Part shown: piece after piece, positions 6,474 to 41,841 of the stretch
Layout of the letters: every line of letters starts with the position of its first letter
Numbering within the stretch: position 1 is the first letter of the stretch
From: Thermoleophilia bacterium
Lineage (GTDB): Bacteria > Actinomycetota > Thermoleophilia > Miltoncostaeales > Miltoncostaeaceae
DNA length: 64,000 bases
NCBI GenBank assembly: GCA_028285405.1
Contig: JANQPH010000034.1
Location: forward strand, 1 to 64,000
Direction of reading: 5' to 3'
The notes under the pieces: generated by a model
Seen by the model: the letters and a program-made list of their open reading frames with translations, nothing else
Told to the model about the DNA's origin: nothing
The model's database searches: none
Program-made: the position numbers and the translations under genes

Positions 6474-8270
6474 ATGGCAACCGACCTCGAGCTGCTGCGC
6501 GCCCACGAGCCGATCATCCGGTTCACCAACGGCGAGCTCTTCCTGCCGACGTCCGTCGAGGGCTACGTCGCCGCGTGCAGCCTGTGGGAGAACCGGCCGA
6601 ACGGCTCCAACGAGCAGATCGCGGCGCCGAGCGAGCTCGACCTGGACCGCCTGGCCGAGGAGGGGCGCCGTGGCGGCGGGCGGGCCCTCAGCCTGCGCTT
6701 CGTGCAGGCCCCGCTCAGCCGGTCGGAGTACCGCGCCTGGCGCAAGACGCCCCGGCCGCGGCTCGGGCGGGGCGGGCGCTTCCAGACCGTCGGCTACGTG
6801 GGGCGGCTGATCGACGGGGCGTTTCGGGCCACCCTGCTCGCCAGGGGCAGCGTGCCCGGCGGCCACATCGCCTCGGCGGAGACGACGTATCGCGAGCAGC
6901 TTCGCGACGGCACGTTCCCCTACTACGGGCACGTCTCGCGCGTCGGCGGCTACATCGTTCTGCAGTACTGGTACTTCTATGCGATGAACGACTGGCGCTC
7001 CACGTTCGGGGGCGTCAACGACCACGAGGCGGACTGGGAGATGGCGTGCGTCTTCCTGTCCGAGGGCGAGGACGGCGACCCGGTGCCCGAGTGGGTGGCG
7101 CTGTCCAACCACGACTTCACCGGCGACGACCTGCGCCGTCGCTGGGACGACCCCGATCTGCAGCGCGAGGGGATGCATCCGATCGGCTTCGCCGGAGCGG
7201 GGTCGCACTCGGGAGCGTTCATCCCCGGCGACTACGTCACGCGCGTCCACCTGCCGGTGATCGACTGGTTCAGCGGCCTGACGCAGCGGGCCCGGACCGC
7301 CCTGCGCCGGCGGCGCGGCCTGCCCGCCCCCAAGAACGAGGGGTTCGGCATCCCGTACGTCGACTACGCCCGGGGCGACGGGGTCAGCATCGGCCCGGGA
7401 CAGGATCACGAGTGGACGCCGGTCGTGATCGACGACGAGACGCCGTGGGTGCGCGACTTTCGGGGCCTGTGGGGCCTCGACACCGGTGATCCCTTCGGCG
7501 GAGAGCGCGCACCGGCTGGCCCCAGGTACGAGCGGGAGCGGGTGGTGCGGGGCTCCTGGGCCGACCCGGTCGCCTGGGCGGGCCTGCAGAAGGTCCCGCC
7601 AGGGCCGTCCGAGTACCGCGCGTCGCTCCAGGACCGGATCTCGCGGATCGGCGACCTGCTCGCCGAGCAGGATCACGAGCTAGACAAGGCCAGGACCCGC
7701 CTGCGCGCCCATTTCGCCGCGCGCGAGTCGCTCAGCGCACGGGGGCCGGCCCGCGCCGAACGGCGCGAACTCTCACGCGAGATCGCTCACGAGGAGAGCA
7801 CCGTCGAGGAGCTGATCGCCAAGCGATCCGCGCTCGTCGAGGAGCGGCGCCTGCATCAGGTGACCCTCGACGACCGGCTGCCCGAGACCGACCCGCACGC
7901 CCACCTGGTGCGGGCACACGGGCCCTACCAGCCTCGTGTGCACGGACGCCAGCGATTCCTCACGATCTGGGCGGCGATCTCGGCGCCCCTGCTCATCGCC
8001 TCGCTGATCCTCGTGCTGCTCAACCCCGTGGCGGGCACGGTGGCGACTTTCACCGGCATCACGCTCGTCTTCGCGGCCGTCGAGGCATGGGGTCGCGGCC
8101 GGCTGCTGGCCCTCGTCGCAGTGCTCGTCGGCGGGATCTTCATCCTCGTCATCGGCACGATCTTCGTGGGGCTCCTGATCGTCGAGTGGCGCCTCGCGAT
8201 CATCGCGCTCCTCGCCGCGATCGCCCTCGCGCTGCTGATCACCAACGTTCGCGAGCTGGTGCGGCACTAG
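6474..8270 (+). CDS. Vps62-like domain protein with coiled coil and C-terminal membrane helices
   Basis: 598 residues. The N-terminal ~370 contain 'LQYWYFYAMNDWRS', 'NDHEADWEM' and 'PVIDWFSGL', as in Vps62-related proteins of unknown enzymology. Residues ~380-470 are a charged coiled coil. After residue ~490 come four strongly hydrophobic stretches, so the protein is membrane-anchored at its C-terminus. No Shine-Dalgarno is obvious before ATG 6474. The function is unknown; the domain call is from motif resemblance. Confidence 0.65.
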   Translation: MATDLELLRAHEPIIRFTNGELFLPTSVEGYVAACSLWENRPNGSNEQIAAPSELDLDRLAEEGRRGGGRALSLRFVQAPLSRSEYRAWRKTPRPRLGRGGRFQTVGYVGRLIDGAFRATLLARGSVPGGHIASAETTYREQLRDGTFPYYGHVSRVGGYIVLQYWYFYAMNDWRSTFGGVNDHEADWEMACVFLSEGEDGDPVPEWVALSNHDFTGDDLRRRWDDPDLQREGMHPIGFAGAGSHSGAFIPGDYVTRVHLPVIDWFSGLTQRARTALRRRRGLPAPKNEGFGIPYVDYARGDGVSIGPGQDHEWTPVVIDDETPWVRDFRGLWGLDTGDPFGGERAPAGPRYERERVVRGSWADPVAWAGLQKVPPGPSEYRASLQDRISRIGDLLAEQDHELDKARTRLRAHFAARESLSARGPARAERRELSREIAHEESTVEELIAKRSALVEERRLHQVTLDDRLPETDPHAHLVRAHGPYQPRVHGRQRFLTIWAAISAPLLIASLILVLLNPVAGTVATFTGITLVFAAVEAWGRGRLLALVAVLVGGIFILVIGTIFVGLLIVEWRLAIIALLAAIALALLITNVRELVRH

Positions 8271-33138: not shown

Positions 33139-33211
33139 GCGGGAGTAGCTCAGCTGGTAGAGCGTCGGCCTTCCAAGCCGGATGTCGCGGGTTCGAGCCC
33201 CGTCTCCCGCT
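33139..33211 (+). tRNA. tRNA-Gly(TCC)
   Basis: 73-nt cloverleaf: acceptor GCGGGAG/CTCCCGC, anticodon stem TCGGC/GCCGG (one T-G) with loop CTTCCAA (anticodon TCC, reads GGA), T-arm CGGGG-type with TTCGAGC. It sits at the left edge of the second accessory island. Confidence 0.96.
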
Positions 33212-33244
33212 CTCCGTTTGCAGAGCCTTCCCATGGAAGGCCCG

Positions 33245-33365
33245 CCAAGTGCCCCAAGCCTGGGACCTTCGGTTTCGTAGACCGACGTTCGGAGCGTCAG
33301 GACGCCCATTTCCATGCGGTTCTCGTCAGTCGGGTGCGCGCCGACACTTGGCGCCGACACTTCCG
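33245..33365 (+). repeat. island-flanking direct repeat, left copy
   Basis: Shares an ordered set of blocks with 40145-40265: CCAAGTGCC (first bases), the hairpin TTCGGTTTCGTAGACCGA (33268-33285), GCCGACACTT and CCGACACTTCCG (33354-33365). The first and last blocks are both exactly 6900 bp from their partners. Intervening bases have diverged. Confidence 0.6.
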
Positions 33366-33433
33366 TGTCGAGGTTCCTGCGCAGACGAGGGCGCGGGCGG
33401 TGCGGGAAGACGAGGCCCGCTAGCCCGCGCCTT

Positions 33434-34096
33434 CTAGAACGCCCCAAGGAATAGGAGCTCCGCCTCGCTAAGGGGCGTGCATGTCGCGCCAAGGATTGTC
33501 CCGTCGGGCGACACGAGAACGACGCAGCGCATTCGGGCGGAGGCGCTCCGAAGAAGAACGATCCAAGGCTCGACTCCCGCGTAGCCCATCTCGTGGGTCG
33601 CCTCCCCAGCCATGCCCATCGGCTCGTCAGCTGCTTCGAGCGCCCAAGAGTCTTCGTGATTGTGCGCTTCGTGCACATGTGCGGCAGCGAGGAGGACTGC
33701 AGCGCCACGTGACACAAAGATCGGGCTGCCCGCAACGTCGTCTGGGCCGTTGGCCCGACTACGGCGCAACCGCCGCCAGATTGCCAACGCTGCCTGTCCG
33801 GCTGCGGCTCCAACGACCCCCTTGGCTGCACTGTCGAAGAGGAACTCAAGAACTGGGATCCAGACTTCCGCTCCCCGGCCAGCGCTTCCATCAACAAGAA
33901 CGGCAGCTCCGAGTTCCGGATCTGCCTCATCTACTGCCCACGAGCCAACCTGACGCTCGAGCGCTGATCGAGCGTCGCCCCCCGCGACCTCGTGCCAATC
34001 GTCTTCGGGGACGACCACCGCGAAGGCGGGCCGAAGGGTGAAACGGGATCCCGGGGCCTGGAAGTCCCAGTCCATTCCTTCTGGCGCCTTTGGCAT
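33434..34096 (-). CDS. hypothetical protein of the tRNA-Gly island
   Basis: 220 residues from ATG 34096. It starts 'PKAPEGMDWDFQAPGSRFTL', has an Ala/Gly-rich possible helix at about 85-105 ('AAKGVVGAAAGQAALAIW'), and a C-terminal segment 'MRCVVLVSPDGTILGATC' that could be a regulatory strand pair. Codon use is less GC-biased than in neighbours. The family is not recognised. First gene inside the island, divergent from the GIY-YIG-like gene. Confidence 0.6.
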   Translation of the reverse strand: MPKAPEGMDWDFQAPGSRFTLRPAFAVVVPEDDWHEVAGGDARSALERQVGSWAVDEADPELGAAVLVDGSAGRGAEVWIPVLEFLFDSAAKGVVGAAAGQAALAIWRRLRRSRANGPDDVAGSPIFVSRGAAVLLAAAHVHEAHNHEDSWALEAADEPMGMAGEATHEMGYAGVEPWIVLLRSASARMRCVVLVSPDGTILGATCTPLSEAELLFLGAF

Positions 34097-34239
34097 AGAG
34101 GGAAGCTACTTGATGCGGCGTCGAATGTAGGGCAATCAGGGCCGCCGCACCTCGAAGCTGTTCGCTCCAGAGGGAAGGGGCTGGACCCGGGTGCGAGCGT
34201 GGGAGTGTGCGGCGTACCATCCTGATAGGCAAGGATTCG

Positions 34240-34965
34240 ATGCCGTCACACCAATCCGATCTCGATCGCTTCTACGAGCTCCTTGGTCGCCTCGCTCTGG
34301 CCGAGGACGGCCCTCGCACGCTAGCCAAGGCGAGCAAGCGCGATGGCTGGCCGGACCGAGGCGTCTACTTCTTCATGGAGGCGGGGGAAACCCGCCGAGA
34401 CTCGGCTGAACTGAGGGTCGTCCGCGTTGGCACCCACGCGCTCCGGCGCGGTTCAGGGACGACACTCTGGGGCCGCCTGTCCCAACACCGCGGACAGGTG
34501 GGCGGGCGTCACCCGGGCGGTGGCAACCATCGTGGTTCCATCTTTCGTCTGCTGGTAGGCACGTCCTTGATAGCCCGAGGTGCTCTGGGCGCGACTGAAG
34601 CGAAAGACACGTGGGGACGGGGCGCGACAGCGCCTCCCGGCGCCAGAGAGTCGGAAGACACACTCGAGGGGGCAGTGAGCGAGCAGATCGGATCGATGCC
34701 GGTCCTCTGGCTAGAGATTGGCGACGAGCCTGGTCCGGAGAGCCAACGCGGACTCATCGAGCGAAACGCGATCGGTCTGCTCAGCCATATGAGGGGCACA
34801 GAACGAGCCGATCCAGCGAGCGGAACTTGGCTTGGGAAGGACTGCGACCGCGCGGCCGTGCGCGCCTCAGGCCTGTGGAACCAGCAGCACGTCGACGAGC
34901 CCTACGACCCAGGCTTTCTCGACGCGATGGAGCGCCTCGTGAGGGCACAAGGGGCAGCCTCGTGA
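34240..34965 (+). CDS. GIY-YIG nuclease-like protein
   Basis: 241 residues. 'RGVYFFMEAGE' followed by 'LRVVRVGTHAL' fits the GIY and YIG strands, then 'LWGRLSQHRG' supplies the usual catalytic Arg helix and 'GNHRGSIFR' the next motif; a Glu-rich helix follows. GIY-YIG enzymes nick or cut DNA. The call is from motif spacing and is moderate. ATG 34240 is preferred because AAGGA lies 5 nt upstream; an earlier GTG (34207) has poor spacing. The next gene overlaps it by 4 bp. Confidence 0.55.
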   Translation: MPSHQSDLDRFYELLGRLALAEDGPRTLAKASKRDGWPDRGVYFFMEAGETRRDSAELRVVRVGTHALRRGSGTTLWGRLSQHRGQVGGRHPGGGNHRGSIFRLLVGTSLIARGALGATEAKDTWGRGATAPPGARESEDTLEGAVSEQIGSMPVLWLEIGDEPGPESQRGLIERNAIGLLSHMRGTERADPASGTWLGKDCDRAAVRASGLWNQQHVDEPYDPGFLDAMERLVRAQGAAS

Positions 34966-35390
34966 GCCGGCGCATCGGTCTCGTGGGCTGCGTCAAGCAG
35001 AAGGGCCTGCATGCCGCTACCGCCGCTGAGCTGTATACCAGCGCGCTCTTCCGGGGGCGACGCGCCTACGTCGAACGCACCTGCGATTCTTGGTTCGTGC
35101 TTTCCGCACTGCACGGTCTGCTCGAGCCGCAGGTAGTGGTCGCCCCGTACGACGTCACCCTCGCGGCTGCGCGCCGACCCGCCAAGCGGGAATGGAGCAA
35201 GCGCGCGCTGGCTCAGATAGACAAGGCCCTGGGGCCTTGTGCCGACGCGACCTTTGAGATCCACGCAGGGTCGGCGTATATGAACTTCGGCCTCGCCGAC
35301 GGCCTTGCGGGCAGGGGTGCATCTCTTGAATGGCCGGTCGCCGGGCTCCGGCTCGGCGAACAGCTTGCCTTCTACGCGGCGGATCGCTAG
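34962..35390 (+). CDS. DUF6884 domain protein
   Basis: 142 residues. 'RIGLVGCVKQKGLHAATAAE' then 'LYTSALFRGRRAYVE', 'WFVLSALHGLLEP' and 'PYDVTL' are the DUF6884 pattern, distantly related to YaaA/archaeosine-type proteins. Its activity is unknown; homologues are frequent on mobile and defence-rich DNA. Start GTG 34962 overlaps the GIY-YIG-like stop (GTGA), so translation is coupled and a joint role is likely. Confidence 0.75.
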   Translation: MSRRIGLVGCVKQKGLHAATAAELYTSALFRGRRAYVERTCDSWFVLSALHGLLEPQVVVAPYDVTLAAARRPAKREWSKRALAQIDKALGPCADATFEIHAGSAYMNFGLADGLAGRGASLEWPVAGLRLGEQLAFYAADR

Positions 35391-35744
35391 CGCAGGCAGT
35401 CGGGGCCCCTACAGGCGCCCGGAGTGCCGAACCTGTTCAGTCCCGTGGGGCTCTGGCTCAAGGCGCTGTCTGATGCACTCGTCGCCCGCATGCCGGAGTG
35501 CGATCATCGCAGCCTGTGCAATCAGCCCGTGCAATCGGCGGATCCCCTGACGTAGTTGTCTCGGCCGCCGTCGCAGCTCGCCCAAGAGCGCGCGCTTCCT
35601 CCCGCGCAGGCTGGGCAGACCGTCTGCTTGATCGAGGCCATATTGGCTTCCGCTCCAACGTCTAGTCGTGCCAGAGCCCACGCGGGATCCAAAGCCGTTT
35701 CGACTGCACACATCCTCGACACTGTCGACTTGCATTGGAGGCGT
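35391..35744. other. 354-bp gap without a gene
   Basis: Between convergent DUF6884 and the dual-HEPN gene. A minus-strand frame (35409-35735) is open but has poor codon composition. I see no RNA gene or repeat. Confidence 0.5.
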
Positions 35745-37526
35745 CTACCCCCGGGTGCGCCGCCCCCGGTTCCTGCGGCGTCCTCTCGCTGAGCGCTTGT
35801 CGGCGGAACGCCTCGGGCGCACCGAGAAGAGAATCGTGGGCGGTGTAGTTCCCGGTTCAGAGCTCAACTGGATGTCCAGGATGGCTCTCCGCGAGCGCAC
35901 TGGATCGAGCGGCTCGAGGGTAACAACGCGCACCTCCTCACCACCGTGCGACCAGTCGAAGCTCACCACCCTCCCGAGTCCACAGACATGAAGCGTGTTC
36001 CGAACGGCGATCTCGAACGATGCCCGAGTGTGATCGATTCGAGGCACCGCGGGAACCCTACGCCCAGATACGGCACCTGGAAACAGCGCTAAGCCCACCT
36101 CGACGCCTATCAACACCGATCGGAGCATCTGGTGGTCGAACTCAAGCTCCGATGTGTCAACCAGGTGCTGCACACCGTGAACGTCCTCATACTCCACCCT
36201 GTCGTGTCGCACAGTCACGCTTGCGTGCCCGAACGCATTCCTGGCGTGCCCCGAGGCGCACCGAGTGACGAGGTCGAACAGGACTTCCTCGCGACGAGCG
36301 CCAATACGGTCGAGTAGCTCGCCGACCAGCGGGGGGGTCCGCATCTCCACGGCGCCAGCGCTGGGTTCCTGCCCAATCGCGAGGGTGGCAGTGAGAATGT
36401 GCCTACCAACGGCCTCGAGAAGGGATCCGTGGGCCGCAACGAGGCGGCGCGGATCCCGGGACTCTTCCCATGCGGCGAACTCCCGACTCTCATCGAAGCC
36501 TCGGTCTGTTACCTTCGGCGCGATCTCAGCCCAGAATCGAGCGTGGAGCTCGCTCAAGGCGGGCTGCTTCTCCGGCGGTACTCCTCGAGCAAGCTCGAAG
36601 ACACATTCCGCGCTCAGGTAGGCAAGAAGCGGATCGGGTGCATCAAGCGCAAGCCGTACAGCGCACTGGCCTGGGGCGACCCAGTATTTGGCCTCGTCTC
36701 GGAGCCCGGCGAAGGCCACGTATCCCGCACCTATTGCGCGAAGGTCATCAAGTTGCCAGCCCCAAACGTCGCCCGCGCGCCCTGGCTCGTTCCATGTCAG
36801 CTGCCCATGACCGACCCTTAGGAGCACCTCGTTCTGCTGACGGTCCGTTTCTAGGCGAGAACACTCAGCCGCAACGGCGTCGTAGACGCTTGCCTCGGAC
36901 GTAGCTGGGTCGCTAGCAGCATCCGGTCCCAATACTCCCGGGAGGTTGGTTTCGAGGCTCTCGCCGTCGGCCACATTGCCATGAATGAGGGTGCTCCGAA
37001 GGTCCCGGTCGGTCTCCCAGCATGCGTGAAGAATCCTGAGGGCCCAGCCCACCGTTTCGCGACAGTCCTCTCGCGTTGGACCGAGCGGATCCGCACCGGT
37101 GCCTGGCTCGGCCGTCGCAACCCGGGCAAGGAATTCCCAGTGCGTCAGGACGTGGGCGATCTCGGCGACTACATGCCGGCATTCGGTACGGAGGTCCCCG
37201 AGACTGCTGCGATCCGCGAAGTCGATTCTTCTGAAGAGCCCGACCACGGCTCCCTTCAGGCGCTCCTGAGGCCGATAGAGCCACCGATTCGGCATCGTCC
37301 AGTTGACGAGTAGCAGCGGATGCAGGAAGAGGATGGGTTCGGCCTCGGGCTCGACAAGGGCCTCAAACCCCGAACTCAACCGCTCGACCTCGGCTTGGAG
37401 CTCAGCTCCGATGGCCCTGCTCGCGATCCCGACTGCCTCTCCGCTAGCGGTCTCCCAGGCCTTCACGTGCCGCGCAACTACCTCGAGATCGACAGCACTG
37501 TCGTCGGCATCTCTCGCTCTTGACAC
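35745..37526 (-). CDS. large protein with two HEPN-like RX4H motifs
   Basis: 593 residues, no membrane segment. Two HEPN-type ribonuclease motifs are visible: 'LRSTLIHGNV' (Arg177, His182) at the end of a helical stretch, and 'ARNAFGHASV' (Arg429, His434), the latter followed by a strand 'DRVEYEDVHG' and a long helix as in HEPN abortive-infection proteins. The N-terminal half has 'LHPLLLVNWTMPNRWLYRPQ'. The C-terminus is very basic ('RRSADKRSARGRRRNRGRR') and could bind nucleic acid. GTG 37526 with GGGGAAG upstream is preferred to TTG 37550. HEPN proteins often cleave RNA to stop phage growth; here that is inference. I know no named family for the whole protein. Confidence 0.75.
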   Translation of the reverse strand: MSRARDADDSAVDLEVVARHVKAWETASGEAVGIASRAIGAELQAEVERLSSGFEALVEPEAEPILFLHPLLLVNWTMPNRWLYRPQERLKGAVVGLFRRIDFADRSSLGDLRTECRHVVAEIAHVLTHWEFLARVATAEPGTGADPLGPTREDCRETVGWALRILHACWETDRDLRSTLIHGNVADGESLETNLPGVLGPDAASDPATSEASVYDAVAAECSRLETDRQQNEVLLRVGHGQLTWNEPGRAGDVWGWQLDDLRAIGAGYVAFAGLRDEAKYWVAPGQCAVRLALDAPDPLLAYLSAECVFELARGVPPEKQPALSELHARFWAEIAPKVTDRGFDESREFAAWEESRDPRRLVAAHGSLLEAVGRHILTATLAIGQEPSAGAVEMRTPPLVGELLDRIGARREEVLFDLVTRCASGHARNAFGHASVTVRHDRVEYEDVHGVQHLVDTSELEFDHQMLRSVLIGVEVGLALFPGAVSGRRVPAVPRIDHTRASFEIAVRNTLHVCGLGRVVSFDWSHGGEEVRVVTLEPLDPVRSRRAILDIQLSSEPGTTPPTILFSVRPRRSADKRSARGRRRNRGRRTRG

Positions 37527-37956
37527 GTTGGCTTCCCCAGTGGTTCTCAATCGAGGCGGCGCTCATCAGCGCAGTCGCCGTGGCCCCGCCGGGCGACCGG
37601 AGCCAGGCGACATTGAGCGTTCTTCGAGCGATGTCACCCCGCGACTCCTGGAGTCCGATGAAAGGTAGCGGCGCCTCTGAGAGGCCGTTGACCCGATGCA
37701 CGACAACCGCGGGTGCGTCGCTGCCTGCTCGTTCGACCGGGTAGCGATCGGTGCCAGGCTACGCCGCTCTTCTCGGAGAAGGTGCAGAACCAAAGGGGCT
37801 CCGAGGAGGACTGGGGCCTTGTGCCCAGCACTATCGAGGCTCCCCACTTCTTCACTCGCCCCGACCCCTCTCTAGCGTCGCGAACCCCGGCCTGACCGCA
37901 GCAATCCAACGGGCTTGGGGGCGGGCCGCGGAGGCGCAACCGCGTCGTCCCTGCCA
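37527..37956. other. 430-bp gap without a gene
   Basis: Between the SIR2-like and dual-HEPN genes, both on the minus strand, so it may hold the promoter of the latter. Short open frames are not convincing. No repeats noticed. Confidence 0.5.
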
Positions 37957-39033
37957 TCACACCCGCAGAAGGTCGGCGTGGTGAGAGAATTCGCGCAAGC
38001 TGTCAAATTGAACGACGCGTGCGCCTTCCTGGAGAGGCCCGACTAGCACCGAGCGGATCGCGCGGCGGTGTTCAGGGCTGGGATTGACGATAATCACGCG
38101 TTCCAGCTTGTCGTTCGACGCCATCGCTGCCCGAAACAGCGAGTCGACGTGGAGGTCGGTCGGAGTGAACGAGAACCCGGCCAGGGTCAGGACCCGAGCC
38201 CGCCTGAGCGCAAGCTCGGCGTTCCCCCAGAGCTTCCTGAGCACCGGGCGATCGAAGAGACGCTTGGCGTTCTCTGGCGGTACGAGTTCAAACTCCTTGT
38301 CGCCAGCCTGCTTGTAGGGACGCTCCCGGAGCTTTATCTCCAAGTGCTCCGCTTCTGGGAGGGGTCTCCAGTTGAGCGACCCATGGAGCTTCAGGAGATT
38401 GATGGAACGATTCTGGGAACTCGGTGGCTCCAGGGCACTCCATGGCTCATGACCAGACACCCTGCCTGGGTTCGGGAAGCAGTAGCCGTATTGCGCAGAC
38501 CACTTCCGGCGCCCGTGTCGACGTAGCGCGTCGTCCATGACACAGTCGTAGTTGAAGCTCAGGATTGTGTCTCTGGGCACAAGATGGCGAACGATTTCGG
38601 CGTGATACATGCAGGGATGTTGGCGCGCGCTCGAAGTGCTCTTCACTACGTCGGCAGACTCCTCGAGCACGGCCGAGAGCGCGTTGAGGAGTCGCTTCCG
38701 CATTTCGCGGAGCCCCTCAGGGGTGAGTGTCCTCGAACTGGCCGGTACTAGCTCCACAACCTCAAGCAGACCCTCGAGTTGGGTGACGTACTCTTCAAGG
38801 GTGACTCGATAGTTCGGCCCATAGATCCGAAGAGCGTCACGCAGCACGCCGTTGACGGTGGGCTGGTGCTTTGCGGTCTGGATCCGCTGGAGCTGGTTGA
38901 AGAAGTCCGCGTTCAGCGGCGGCTGACAGCGAGGGCTGTGTTCCTCGACGAATTGGGCCCCGCGGGTGGCGCCGGCTCCAATTACGAGGACGGTGTCCCC
39001 GGGGCTCCAACGAGCGATAGCGCAGCGTAACAC
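37957..39033 (-). CDS. SIR2-like domain protein
   Basis: 358 residues. SIR2_2-type motifs: 'TVLVIGAGATRG' (14-25, NAD-binding Gly turn), 'TILSFNYDCVMDDAL' (156-170, Asn161-Tyr-Asp), 'LLKLHGSLNW' (213-222, catalytic His217) and 'LAGFSFTPTD' (284-293). Stand-alone proteins of this type are often NADases in phage defence rather than deacetylases. GTG 39033 has GCGGGA upstream. It lies between the dual-HEPN and PIN-like genes, all on one strand. Confidence 0.82.
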   Translation of the reverse strand: MLRCAIARWSPGDTVLVIGAGATRGAQFVEEHSPRCQPPLNADFFNQLQRIQTAKHQPTVNGVLRDALRIYGPNYRVTLEEYVTQLEGLLEVVELVPASSRTLTPEGLREMRKRLLNALSAVLEESADVVKSTSSARQHPCMYHAEIVRHLVPRDTILSFNYDCVMDDALRRHGRRKWSAQYGYCFPNPGRVSGHEPWSALEPPSSQNRSINLLKLHGSLNWRPLPEAEHLEIKLRERPYKQAGDKEFELVPPENAKRLFDRPVLRKLWGNAELALRRARVLTLAGFSFTPTDLHVDSLFRAAMASNDKLERVIIVNPSPEHRRAIRSVLVGPLQEGARVVQFDSLREFSHHADLLRV

Positions 39034-39431
39034 GGCGTTCCCGCAAGGCTCTGGGGCGCGTCCCCTCCCCTACCGTCTGGCACTACCTGCGGACCGTGGT
39101 TCCCCAGCTTCTGGCCCGGCGGATAAGTCCACCTTGCGCTCCGGGCGGACACACCGAGCCAAGCAGGCGGCTCGGCTCGCCGCGGGGGGATCCCCGGCGA
39201 CCGATGGGCGACGCGTGGCCAACGCCCATCCATGAGCAGCTCCTCAGACCACCGGCGGCCTTGCCTGGTGGGCGGGGTAGGGTGGACCATTTCGTGGGAC
39301 GCCCTTCGTCAAGCGGTTTCTCAGAACGCGCTAGAGAGGCTCGAACCCTGACCTTCGGCTTCGCGGACGCCCGGTCCCCTGGCGATGAGAACAGCCTGCG
39401 TCGCCGTATGGGCTCCAGGGGCTCCTTGTTG
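39034..39431. other. 398-bp gap; possible tRNA-Gly antisense remnant
   Basis: No gene. The segment 39330-39370 (GGCTCGAACCC, then CTTCGGCTTCGCGGACG) weakly resembles the antisense of the tRNA-Gly T-arm and anticodon arm, and also the hairpin in the island-flanking repeat. Confidence 0.35.
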
Positions 39432-39983
39432 CTAGAGCCCCTTGAGGTGCGGCTGCAGCAGGTCCCACACCTCGGGCGGACGGAGTACGTCGATACCAAG
39501 CTCACGGCGTAGGTGGATGGCGTTCCTCGGGAGCCTGCGCTCGATGGTCAAGAACGTGTCGCACTCCAGCACGAGAGCGTCTCGGATCAGTAGGGCGTCC
39601 TCACGGCTTAGGTATCCGAAGGCTCCACCCCCAAGTCGAGCGGCTAGACCAACGCCCGAGCCGTCGAAAGGGCGTACGGCTAGGTCGACGCACGCCTCCC
39701 AGTGGTCGAGCACGTCGTGGGCCCAACGAAGGTAAGACTGGTCGCCGGTCGCATCCACCTCCCGGAGGGTGTTGGACGACAGGGCGAACTCGAAGGCTCC
39801 GCGGCGCGCAAACAGCATGATGCCGCGCAGGGCGAGGACGTCGTTATTGTCGGCTCCCGATCGGCCCCTCGGCTGGTACAGCTCACCCTCATAGACAGCT
39901 CCGCCGTGATCGAGGAGCGCCTGAAGAGCGTTCGAGTCGAGGAATAGCCGAAGGGGCCGGTGACGGCTCATCGATCCGCTCAT
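39432..39983 (-). CDS. PIN-domain-like nuclease
   Basis: 183 residues. Acidic metal-site residues are spaced as in PIN ribonucleases: Asp16 in 'LRLFLDSNAL', Glu75 in 'SSNTLREVD', Asp129 in 'SREDALLIRDAL' and Asp142 in 'ECDTFLTIERR'. PIN proteins cut RNA, commonly as VapC toxins. No VapB-type antitoxin gene is adjacent, and 183 residues is longer than usual VapC. ATG 39983 or 39971 may be the start. It is the last island gene. Confidence 0.75.
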   Translation of the reverse strand: MSGSMSRHRPLRLFLDSNALQALLDHGGAVYEGELYQPRGRSGADNNDVLALRGIMLFARRGAFEFALSSNTLREVDATGDQSYLRWAHDVLDHWEACVDLAVRPFDGSGVGLAARLGGGAFGYLSREDALLIRDALVLECDTFLTIERRLPRNAIHLRRELGIDVLRPPEVWDLLQPHLKGL

Positions 39984-40572
39984 GTGGCCATATTTGCAGG
40001 AGAAACCGAACCGCCAGCCAGCAGCCCTTGTCGGCACGCCGGGCGGGCCCGCGCCGACCCACGCCGCGTGGGCCTGAGAGCACCCGCAGAACCACTCGCT
40101 TCCGTTGTGTCAGTTGCCGTGCCGACGGCCGCCGGCCTCTCGCTCCAAGTGCCTGAAAGACGAGCTTCGGTCTAGTGGACCGACGCCCTCATCGAGTGCG
40201 AACCCCTCGCCCTCAGTGATCTCGCTCTCGACCTCAGCTGCCGACACTTCTCCCGACACTTCCGGCGCAACTTCGCCCCCGCCTCGATCGGGGGCCAACA
40301 CGGTCGTGCGCTGAGTCCTCCTGCTCGGCGGGCGGAGCCCGGCAGACCCTGTGCTCAGGACCGCTTGCGTCTTGCCCCAGCCCCGCAGGGCGATCTCGCC
40401 AACACTCTGGAAACCACGTCTTGGAGCGCCCCCGAGGCCCGAAGAGCTACAGTCCTCGTCGGGCGGTGCATGAAGTGACCCGCCCTTCACTCGCCCACGT
40501 GCCTTCGCGCAGGTCGGATCGAGGGAACACCGACCACGTCTGGCCGCCTGTCGGCCAAAGGAAGGCAACACC
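39984..40572. other. 589-bp gap with right-hand island repeat
   Basis: Holds the flanking repeat (40145-40265), otherwise no gene. The minus-strand frame through the repeat (40110-40577) is open in both repeat copies but looks like a relic. The helicase ribosome-binding site is at the right end. Confidence 0.5.
40145..40265 (+). repeat. island-flanking direct repeat, right copy
   Basis: Same ordered blocks as 33245-33365: CCAAGTGCC, hairpin TCGGTC-TAGTG-GACCGA (40167-40183), GCCGACACTT (40241-40250), CCGACACTTCCG (40254-40265). Marks the probable right boundary of the island. Confidence 0.6.
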
Positions 40573-41841
40573 ATCACAGATCAGCTTGGCTTTGCGGATC
40601 TCGGCATCCGTGCGCCCATCGTTCGCGCGCTCGAGAAGAAGGGCGCCACCAACCCGTTTCCGATCCAGTCGGCAGCGATCCCACACGCCAATGAAGGCCT
40701 CGACCTGCTCGCCAAGAGCCCAACGGGATCAGGAAAGACGCTCGCGTTCCTCGTGCCCGCACTCAACGCCCTGACCCCAGAGGACGGACCACCTGCGCTT
40801 CTGGTCCTCGCACCCACCCGGGAGCTCGCAAACCAGATCCACGACGAGGCGGGGCCGCTCGCAAAGGCCGTTGGCCTTCGCAGCGCCGTCGCGATCGGGG
40901 GGGCAAAGATCGAGCCTCAGGCCCGGCGCGTCGAGGGCGCCCAGGTGCTCGTTGCGACGCCGGGTCGGCTGATCGACTTGGTCGATCGGAGAGCGGTCGA
41001 TCTCGGCCGAGTCAAGATCCTCGTGCTCGACGAGGCGGATCGCATGCTCGACATGGGCTTTCGCCCGCAGATCGATCGACTCATCGCGAGGTTGCCACGG
41101 CGTCGCCAGACCATGCTGTTCTCGGCGACGCTCGATGGCGAGGTTGGAGAGCTGGCGCGCGCCTATACAGACGATCCCGCCCGAGTCTCGGCCGCCGCGC
41201 TGGGCGATGGCGAAGGCGAGGTCGCACACAGCTTCACGTCGGTCCAAGGCAATCGTGGGAAGCGCGATGCGCTACTCGAGCTCTTGGAGCGAGGCGACCC
41301 CGGACTCACACTCGTCTTCTCGCGGACCAAGCACGGTGTGAAGCGACTGCGCCGAGAGCTCGAGCAGCGGGGCACCTCGGTGGCCGCTCTGCACGGCGAC
41401 ATGACCCAAGCCGGACGTCAGCGGGCCCTTGCGGCGTTCACAGACGGCAAGGTGAACGTGCTGGTGGCGACCGACATCGCCGCTCGAGGGATCGATCTCG
41501 CGGACATCACCCGGGTCGTGCACTTCGACGCCCCGACCACGCGCGAGGACTTCGTACATCGCTCGGGACGCACCGGCCGGGCAGGGCGATCGGGAGTCTG
41601 CGTCACCTTCGTGACCTCGGCAGAGGAGGCAGACGTGTCTCGGCTGGCTGCCAGCTGTGGTCTGGAAGCCGAGTACCAAGCGGCGGGGCTCAAGATGGCC
41701 GCTCCGCGCATTCTGCGCACCGGCGGGCGCAACAAGGGCCGTGGAGGCCGGCGCGCGCGCTCAACTGCGCCGCCGACGCCGACACCTGATCGGGGAAACA
41801 GGATCCGACGAAAGAGCACCCCCTCCTCGACCAAAGGCTGA
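40573..41841 (+). CDS. DEAD-box RNA helicase
   Basis: 422 residues. Q-motif 'GFADLGI...PFPIQSAAIP', Walker A 'SPTGSGKT' (49-56), 'PTRELA', 'TPGRLID', 'VLDEADRMLDMGF', 'SATL', 'HGDMTQAGR', 'VATDIAARGIDL' and 'HRSGRTGRAG' are complete; the tail is basic. The conserved N-terminus begins right after ATC 40573, which has AAAGGAAGG at 40557-40565 with 7-nt spacing. No ATG, GTG or TTG occurs in frame between the stop at 40471 and Leu61, well inside the ATPase. ATC appears to be the start. If not, the gene is damaged or there is a base error. Confidence 0.88.
   Translation: MTDQLGFADLGIRAPIVRALEKKGATNPFPIQSAAIPHANEGLDLLAKSPTGSGKTLAFLVPALNALTPEDGPPALLVLAPTRELANQIHDEAGPLAKAVGLRSAVAIGGAKIEPQARRVEGAQVLVATPGRLIDLVDRRAVDLGRVKILVLDEADRMLDMGFRPQIDRLIARLPRRRQTMLFSATLDGEVGELARAYTDDPARVSAAALGDGEGEVAHSFTSVQGNRGKRDALLELLERGDPGLTLVFSRTKHGVKRLRRELEQRGTSVAALHGDMTQAGRQRALAAFTDGKVNVLVATDIAARGIDLADITRVVHFDAPTTREDFVHRSGRTGRAGRSGVCVTFVTSAEEADVSRLAASCGLEAEYQAAGLKMAAPRILRTGGRNKGRGGRRARSTAPPTPTPDRGNRIRRKSTPSSTKG

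Follow-up and report, generated by a model that had tools for sequence, protein, structure and literature searches.

A PDC-M57 candidate defence pair in a putative composite island next to a tRNA-Gly gene of a Thermoleophilia bacterium

We report on a predicted defence island in a Thermoleophilia bacterium whose genome assembly comprises 2.4 Mb in 57 contigs. The analysis covered a 64 kb stretch of one contig (hereafter the window), in which six long ORFs lie downstream of a tRNA-Gly gene, the last one ending at position 40037, followed by a DEAD-box helicase gene that starts at approximately 40.57 kb (Table 1). Four of the six genes encode a divergent GIY-YIG nuclease, a DUF6884 protein, a SIR2_2 protein and a PIN-like nuclease, and the remaining two are ORFans.

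Layout and edges of the island

The GC content varies between 0.60 and 0.69 within the island compared with approximately 0.70-0.75 on its left side, and third-position GC ranges between 0.67 and 0.78 across the six island genes vs 0.81-0.95 for most flanking genes; it is approximately 0.9 for the core genes to the left and intermediate, 0.77, for the adjoining helicase gene. ORFs in the intergenic gaps showed no coding signal, and tRNA-Gly was the only Rfam RNA found in the region. These ORF and GC data, together with the repeats described below, agree with a first-pass annotation of the same DNA that had proposed six accessory genes in A+T-richer DNA with several gaps, extending from tRNA-Gly to a repeat near 40.26 kb. 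For the first gene past tRNA-Gly, which has a coding-like frame, no match was obtained in Pfam, PADLOC or any other library searched.

Table 1. Positions of the island features and their neighbours in the window
Feature	Position	Strand	Evidence and remarks
tRNA-Gly (TCC)	33139..33212	+	Left neighbour of the island
Left edge direct repeat	33245..33366	+	CCAAGTGCC ... CTTCGGTTTCGTAGACCGACG ... GCCGACACTTGGCGCCGACACTTCCG; att-like, arm-site-like
ORFan, 220 aa	33434..34096	-	Coding-like frame; no match in the libraries searched
PDC-M57B, divergent GIY-YIG nuclease, 252 aa	34207..34965	+	PADLOC PDLC04714, E=6.5e-73, residues 15-246
PDC-M57A, DUF6884 / YaaA-like, 142 aa	34962..35390	+	PADLOC PDLC04712, 2e-30; PF21818, 1.5e-40
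ORFan, 601 aa	35745..37550	-	Likely start GTG at ~37526; HEPN-like motifs RSTLIHG (185) and RNAFGHA (437)
Stand-alone SIR2_2 protein, 358 aa	37957..39033	-	GAGATRGA, SFNYD and LKLHGSLNW motifs intact
tRNA-3'-end-like, variable/T-arm-like short sequence	39341..39370	-	GAAGGTCAGGGTTCGAGCC; weak; between the SIR2 and PIN genes
PIN-like nuclease, 201 aa	39432..40037	-	Homologues suggest start at Met19 or Met23
Right edge direct repeat	40147..40265	+	CCAAGTGCC ... CTTCGGTCTAGTGGACCGACG ... GCCGACACTTCTCCCGACACTTCCG

The predicted boundaries of the island rest on diverged repeats at its two edges. Specifically, CTTCGGTYTMGTRGACCGACG is present at ~33267 and ~40165, i.e. in one copy per edge, while GCCGACACTT, followed after 3-4 bases by CCGACACTTCCG, occurs at ~33340-33365 and ~40240-40264, and both blocks appear in identical order and with nearly equal spacing at either edge. 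The nonamer CCGACACTT has four copies in the 64 kb, all at the two island edges (0.34 expected), and the paired edge motif has two sites in the whole genome, both at the island edges; across 295 further genomes of the same phylum it was found once. The repeats are directly oriented, as expected of attachment sites. The edge motif was also considered, and rejected, as the mark of a particular phage, since in viral contigs it is a common simple repeat with unrelated flanks; likewise, stretching the edge repeat into tRNA-Gly was not significant under loose scoring, where 35 of 1451 random pairs were equally good.

The 3' end of tRNA-Gly has no duplicate at the right island edge, and the best other match to the gene inside the island spans only 11 bp (39338-39348). 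Moreover, no integrase (PF00589) was predicted on the contig of the window, and the four sites in the genome are all on other contigs. Because both the 3' duplicate and a tyrosine integrase on the contig are missing, the island does not fit the classic type of tRNA-integrated element and may instead represent a decayed or trans-mobilised element. The GAAGGTCAGGGTTCGAGCC stretch might be a remnant of an earlier insertion. When the DEAD-box helicase and tRNA-Gly neighbourhoods of relatives were compared in search of an empty site, synteny turned out not to be kept at family distance.

As regards the helicase gene itself, its frame runs upstream (40543-40753 in the window) across the region of the Q motif (ITDQLGFADLGIRAP), and this stretch contains no ATG, GTG or TTG. 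Since a ribosome-binding-like AAAGGAAGG stands upstream of ACC ATC, the start codon is either non-standard, mutated or misassembled.

The SIR2, PIN and 601-aa genes

The SIR2 protein matched PF13289 with an E-value of 2e-8 (34.9 bits against a cut-off of 24.5), which together with its intact motifs bears out the earlier SIR2 label. In the closest relative found, 32% identical and encoded in genome G117, the GAGATRGA, SFNYD and HGSLNW motifs are conserved. Its gene has neighbours encoding a 117-aa protein and an ion-channel-like protein, and a terminase-like gene follows within a few kb on one side or the other (the terminase and ion-channel labels are readings of the sequences and not profile matches), in what appears to be a prophage-like region. 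No SIR2 relatives were found in viral contigs. The island protein has the intact SIR2_2 motifs and several PADLOC SIR2 profile matches in common with stand-alone SIR2_2 defence proteins; however, it has no Argonaute, HerA, TIR or STAND partner and matches no specific system. Judging from the motif set it would probably consume NAD+ when triggered.

For the PIN protein no Pfam profile match was obtained. Its predicted model (pLDDT 62) gave 5h4g (VapC4) as best PDB match, a remote one (E 6.9e-3, prob 1.00, 14% identity), and D34, E93, D147, D153 and E166 are invariant in the three sequences available. The conserved acidic residues and the moderate fold match support its assignment as a putative PIN-like nuclease, which would probably cut RNA. 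The putative PIN-like fold and the acidic residues recall VapC-type PIN nucleases, while the island protein differs in being remote from VapC4 and in having no adjoining VapB-like antitoxin gene. Only two relatives were found. One is a solitary gene in a Rubrobacter MAG, and the other, in a Herminiimonas MAG, adjoins a DUF6236-like gene within a Tn7-like tnsABC-tniQ element; viral contigs and plasmids had none. The Herminiimonas element (tnsA, tnsB, tnsC and tniQ; L008, 273-8579) carries DUF6471, DUF6236-like and PIN-like genes as cargo, and the latter two may represent an undescribed two-gene module.

The 601-aa gene is a real-looking ORF with no stops in its frame vs 7-20 in the other five frames. 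Searches of Pfam, NCBIfam, PADLOC, PHROGs and PDB gave no HEPN support for the protein, its fragments returned nothing relevant from Pfam, and no relatives were detected in 60 related genomes, 396 genomes of the phylum, a collection of genome contigs, viral contigs, plasmids or phages. An AlphaFold2 model of the protein alone reached a pLDDT of 37, too low for use. The plain RX4-6H pattern occurs in it at chance frequency (P=0.46), and a tighter HEPN pattern, chosen with the sequence already in view, is rarer (P=0.003). The two HEPN-like motifs are suggestive and not statistically secure, and the "dual HEPN" label given in the first-pass annotation stays at the level of short motifs. That the protein is a new dual-HEPN RNase, unrelated in sequence to the described HEPN families, and that it acts with SIR2 in a defence system of two or three genes not yet described, we regard as very unlikely.

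The same annotation had suggested that the HEPN-like, SIR2 and PIN genes form one undescribed system. The three genes are adjacent and on one strand, and HEPN, SIR2 and PIN folds are all used in known defence systems, which could be reconciled with a phage-triggered system combining a dual-HEPN RNase as sensor/effector, a SIR2 NADase and a PIN RNase. Against this, the genes do not overlap and are separated by gaps without coding signal of 406 bp (601-aa to SIR2) and 398 bp (SIR2 to PIN), the second of which contains the tRNA-end-like remnant. In addition, none of the 60-396 genomes searched per gene carries any two of the three, and the PIN and SIR2 relatives stand alone or with other partners, so that their neighbours differ. 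As far as these searches reach, the absence of co-occurrence speaks against the proposal; since most genomes searched lack all of these genes, its absence in 300-400 genomes would also be compatible with a rare system. Taken together, a three-gene system appears extremely improbable.

A smaller unit, in which SIR2 and the 601-aa protein act as an effector/sensor pair and PIN is independent, would fit the adjacency of the two genes on the same strand, and a 358-aa SIR2 domain protein that lacks a sensor domain frequently depends on a partner. Given the 406-bp gap, and given that the G117 SIR2 relative is accompanied by the 117-aa and ion-channel-like genes and has no 601-aa-like neighbour, we consider also this arrangement unlikely.

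The PDC-M57 pair and its predicted function

The pair of genes on the plus strand (34207-35390) is predicted to constitute a two-gene operon of the PDC-M57 type, with the GTG start of M57A overlapping the stop of M57B by 4 bp (GTGA junction). For M57B the Pfam search was without match. Aligned with its relatives (11 sequences), it has invariant or near-invariant GVY, RVG, RL..H and E154 positions (GxY/RxG/R..H/E), where RVG replaces the canonical YIG, and this conservation fits a divergent GIY-YIG site. M57A retains the CxxxK and LSAxxG motifs. Hence, the DUF6884 and GIY-YIG labels given from the sequence alone are upheld, the former by PF21818 and the latter by the PDC-M57B profile (Table 1) and the conserved active-site positions.

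Of the 296 genomes of the phylum, 9 carry M57B, at ten sites in total; M57A adjoins eight of these and was not detected in the neighbourhoods examined at the other two. Neighbours at some of the other sites include GmrSD, an Eco57I-type methylase, McrBC and an HNH protein, while no relatives of the SIR2, PIN or 601-aa genes were detectable in the M57 neighbourhoods. Viral contigs had no M57B relatives. One of the sites is a second M57 copy in the same genome, 63% and 60% identical to the island pair, which is located ~2 kb past a 49-bp duplicate of a tRNA-Ser sequence. At this locus the 3' half of tRNA-Ser(TGA) (L090, G000:C2, 3620-3709) has a perfect 49-bp copy at 7861-7909, ~4.2 kb away, and two genes (345 and 445 aa) without Pfam or PADLOC matches lie in between; this is a clear small tRNA-type island, i.e. 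a true tRNA-type insertion.

That DUF6884/GIY-YIG would be a system separate from the other island genes, as had been suggested, is in keeping with the strong matches of the two adjacent, overlapping genes to PDC-M57 and with their pairing at eight of the ten sites. PDC-M57 (M57A plus M57B) is already catalogued in PADLOC-DB as a candidate phage defence system and consequently is not undescribed; the gene order is B then A in the island and A then B in several relatives. A literature search yielded no experimental work on defence by M57.

According to the Pfam curators DUF6884 is distantly related to YaaA, with CxxxK and LSAxxG proposed as part of the active site in a YaaA-like DNA-binding fold; YfjM has been reported among interactors of DNA lesions, and base flipping was predicted by AlphaFold3 (PMC11701544). 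CxxxK and LSAxxG are common to M57A and YaaA or the B. subtilis DUF6884 protein YfjM; these stand alone, whereas the island DUF6884 gene forms an operon with a nuclease-like gene. On the basis of the conserved motifs, the published YfjM finding and the predicted base flipping we propose that PDC-M57 probably recognises odd or modified bases and cuts there or nearby. In this proposal M57A would bind DNA and flip a damaged or modified base out of the helix, in line with what has been proposed for the related YfjM, and M57B would then cut the marked DNA, which would amount to modification-dependent restriction. As would be the case for M57, the GIY-YIG type IV restriction enzyme CMoRE uses a GIY-YIG nuclease in phage defence against modified DNA (PMC12923530), but there a single protein also contains the sensing domain, unlike the two-gene M57.

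A probable composite island

The presence of the PADLOC candidate PDC-M57 is consistent with the earlier view of the locus as a defence-type island. Our data suggest that it is likely an accreted, integrase-less defence island that combines PDC-M57, with the mechanism proposed above, and four independent genes (SIR2 NADase-like, PIN nuclease-like and two ORFans). This is supported by the profile identities, the operon overlap, the M57A-M57B pairing, the absence of linkage among the remaining island genes across the searched genomes, and edge repeats that are unique in the genome. The activity of the island, its antiphage effect and its mobility are predictions from sequence.

The long gaps, the ORFans, the lack of an integrase and the diverged edge repeats might be expected of a decayed graveyard, the genes of which are unexpressed or unselected and kept by chance. 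This is quite unlikely, however, considering that all six frames are open, that the SIR2, PIN, GIY-YIG and DUF6884 active-site motifs are intact, and that the genome keeps a second M57 copy.

With a composite island as the favoured reading, the finding is largely ordinary, since a three-gene system is unsupported and the M57 pair is already in databases; HEPN-, SIR2- and PIN-like genes side by side in an island do not by that alone make a system. Finally, the locus provides a clean example of PDC-M57, present twice in one small genome and elsewhere at several sites near type IV restriction genes, and this distribution gives a specific, testable proposal, namely that a base-recognising YaaA-like protein would guide a GIY-YIG cutter.
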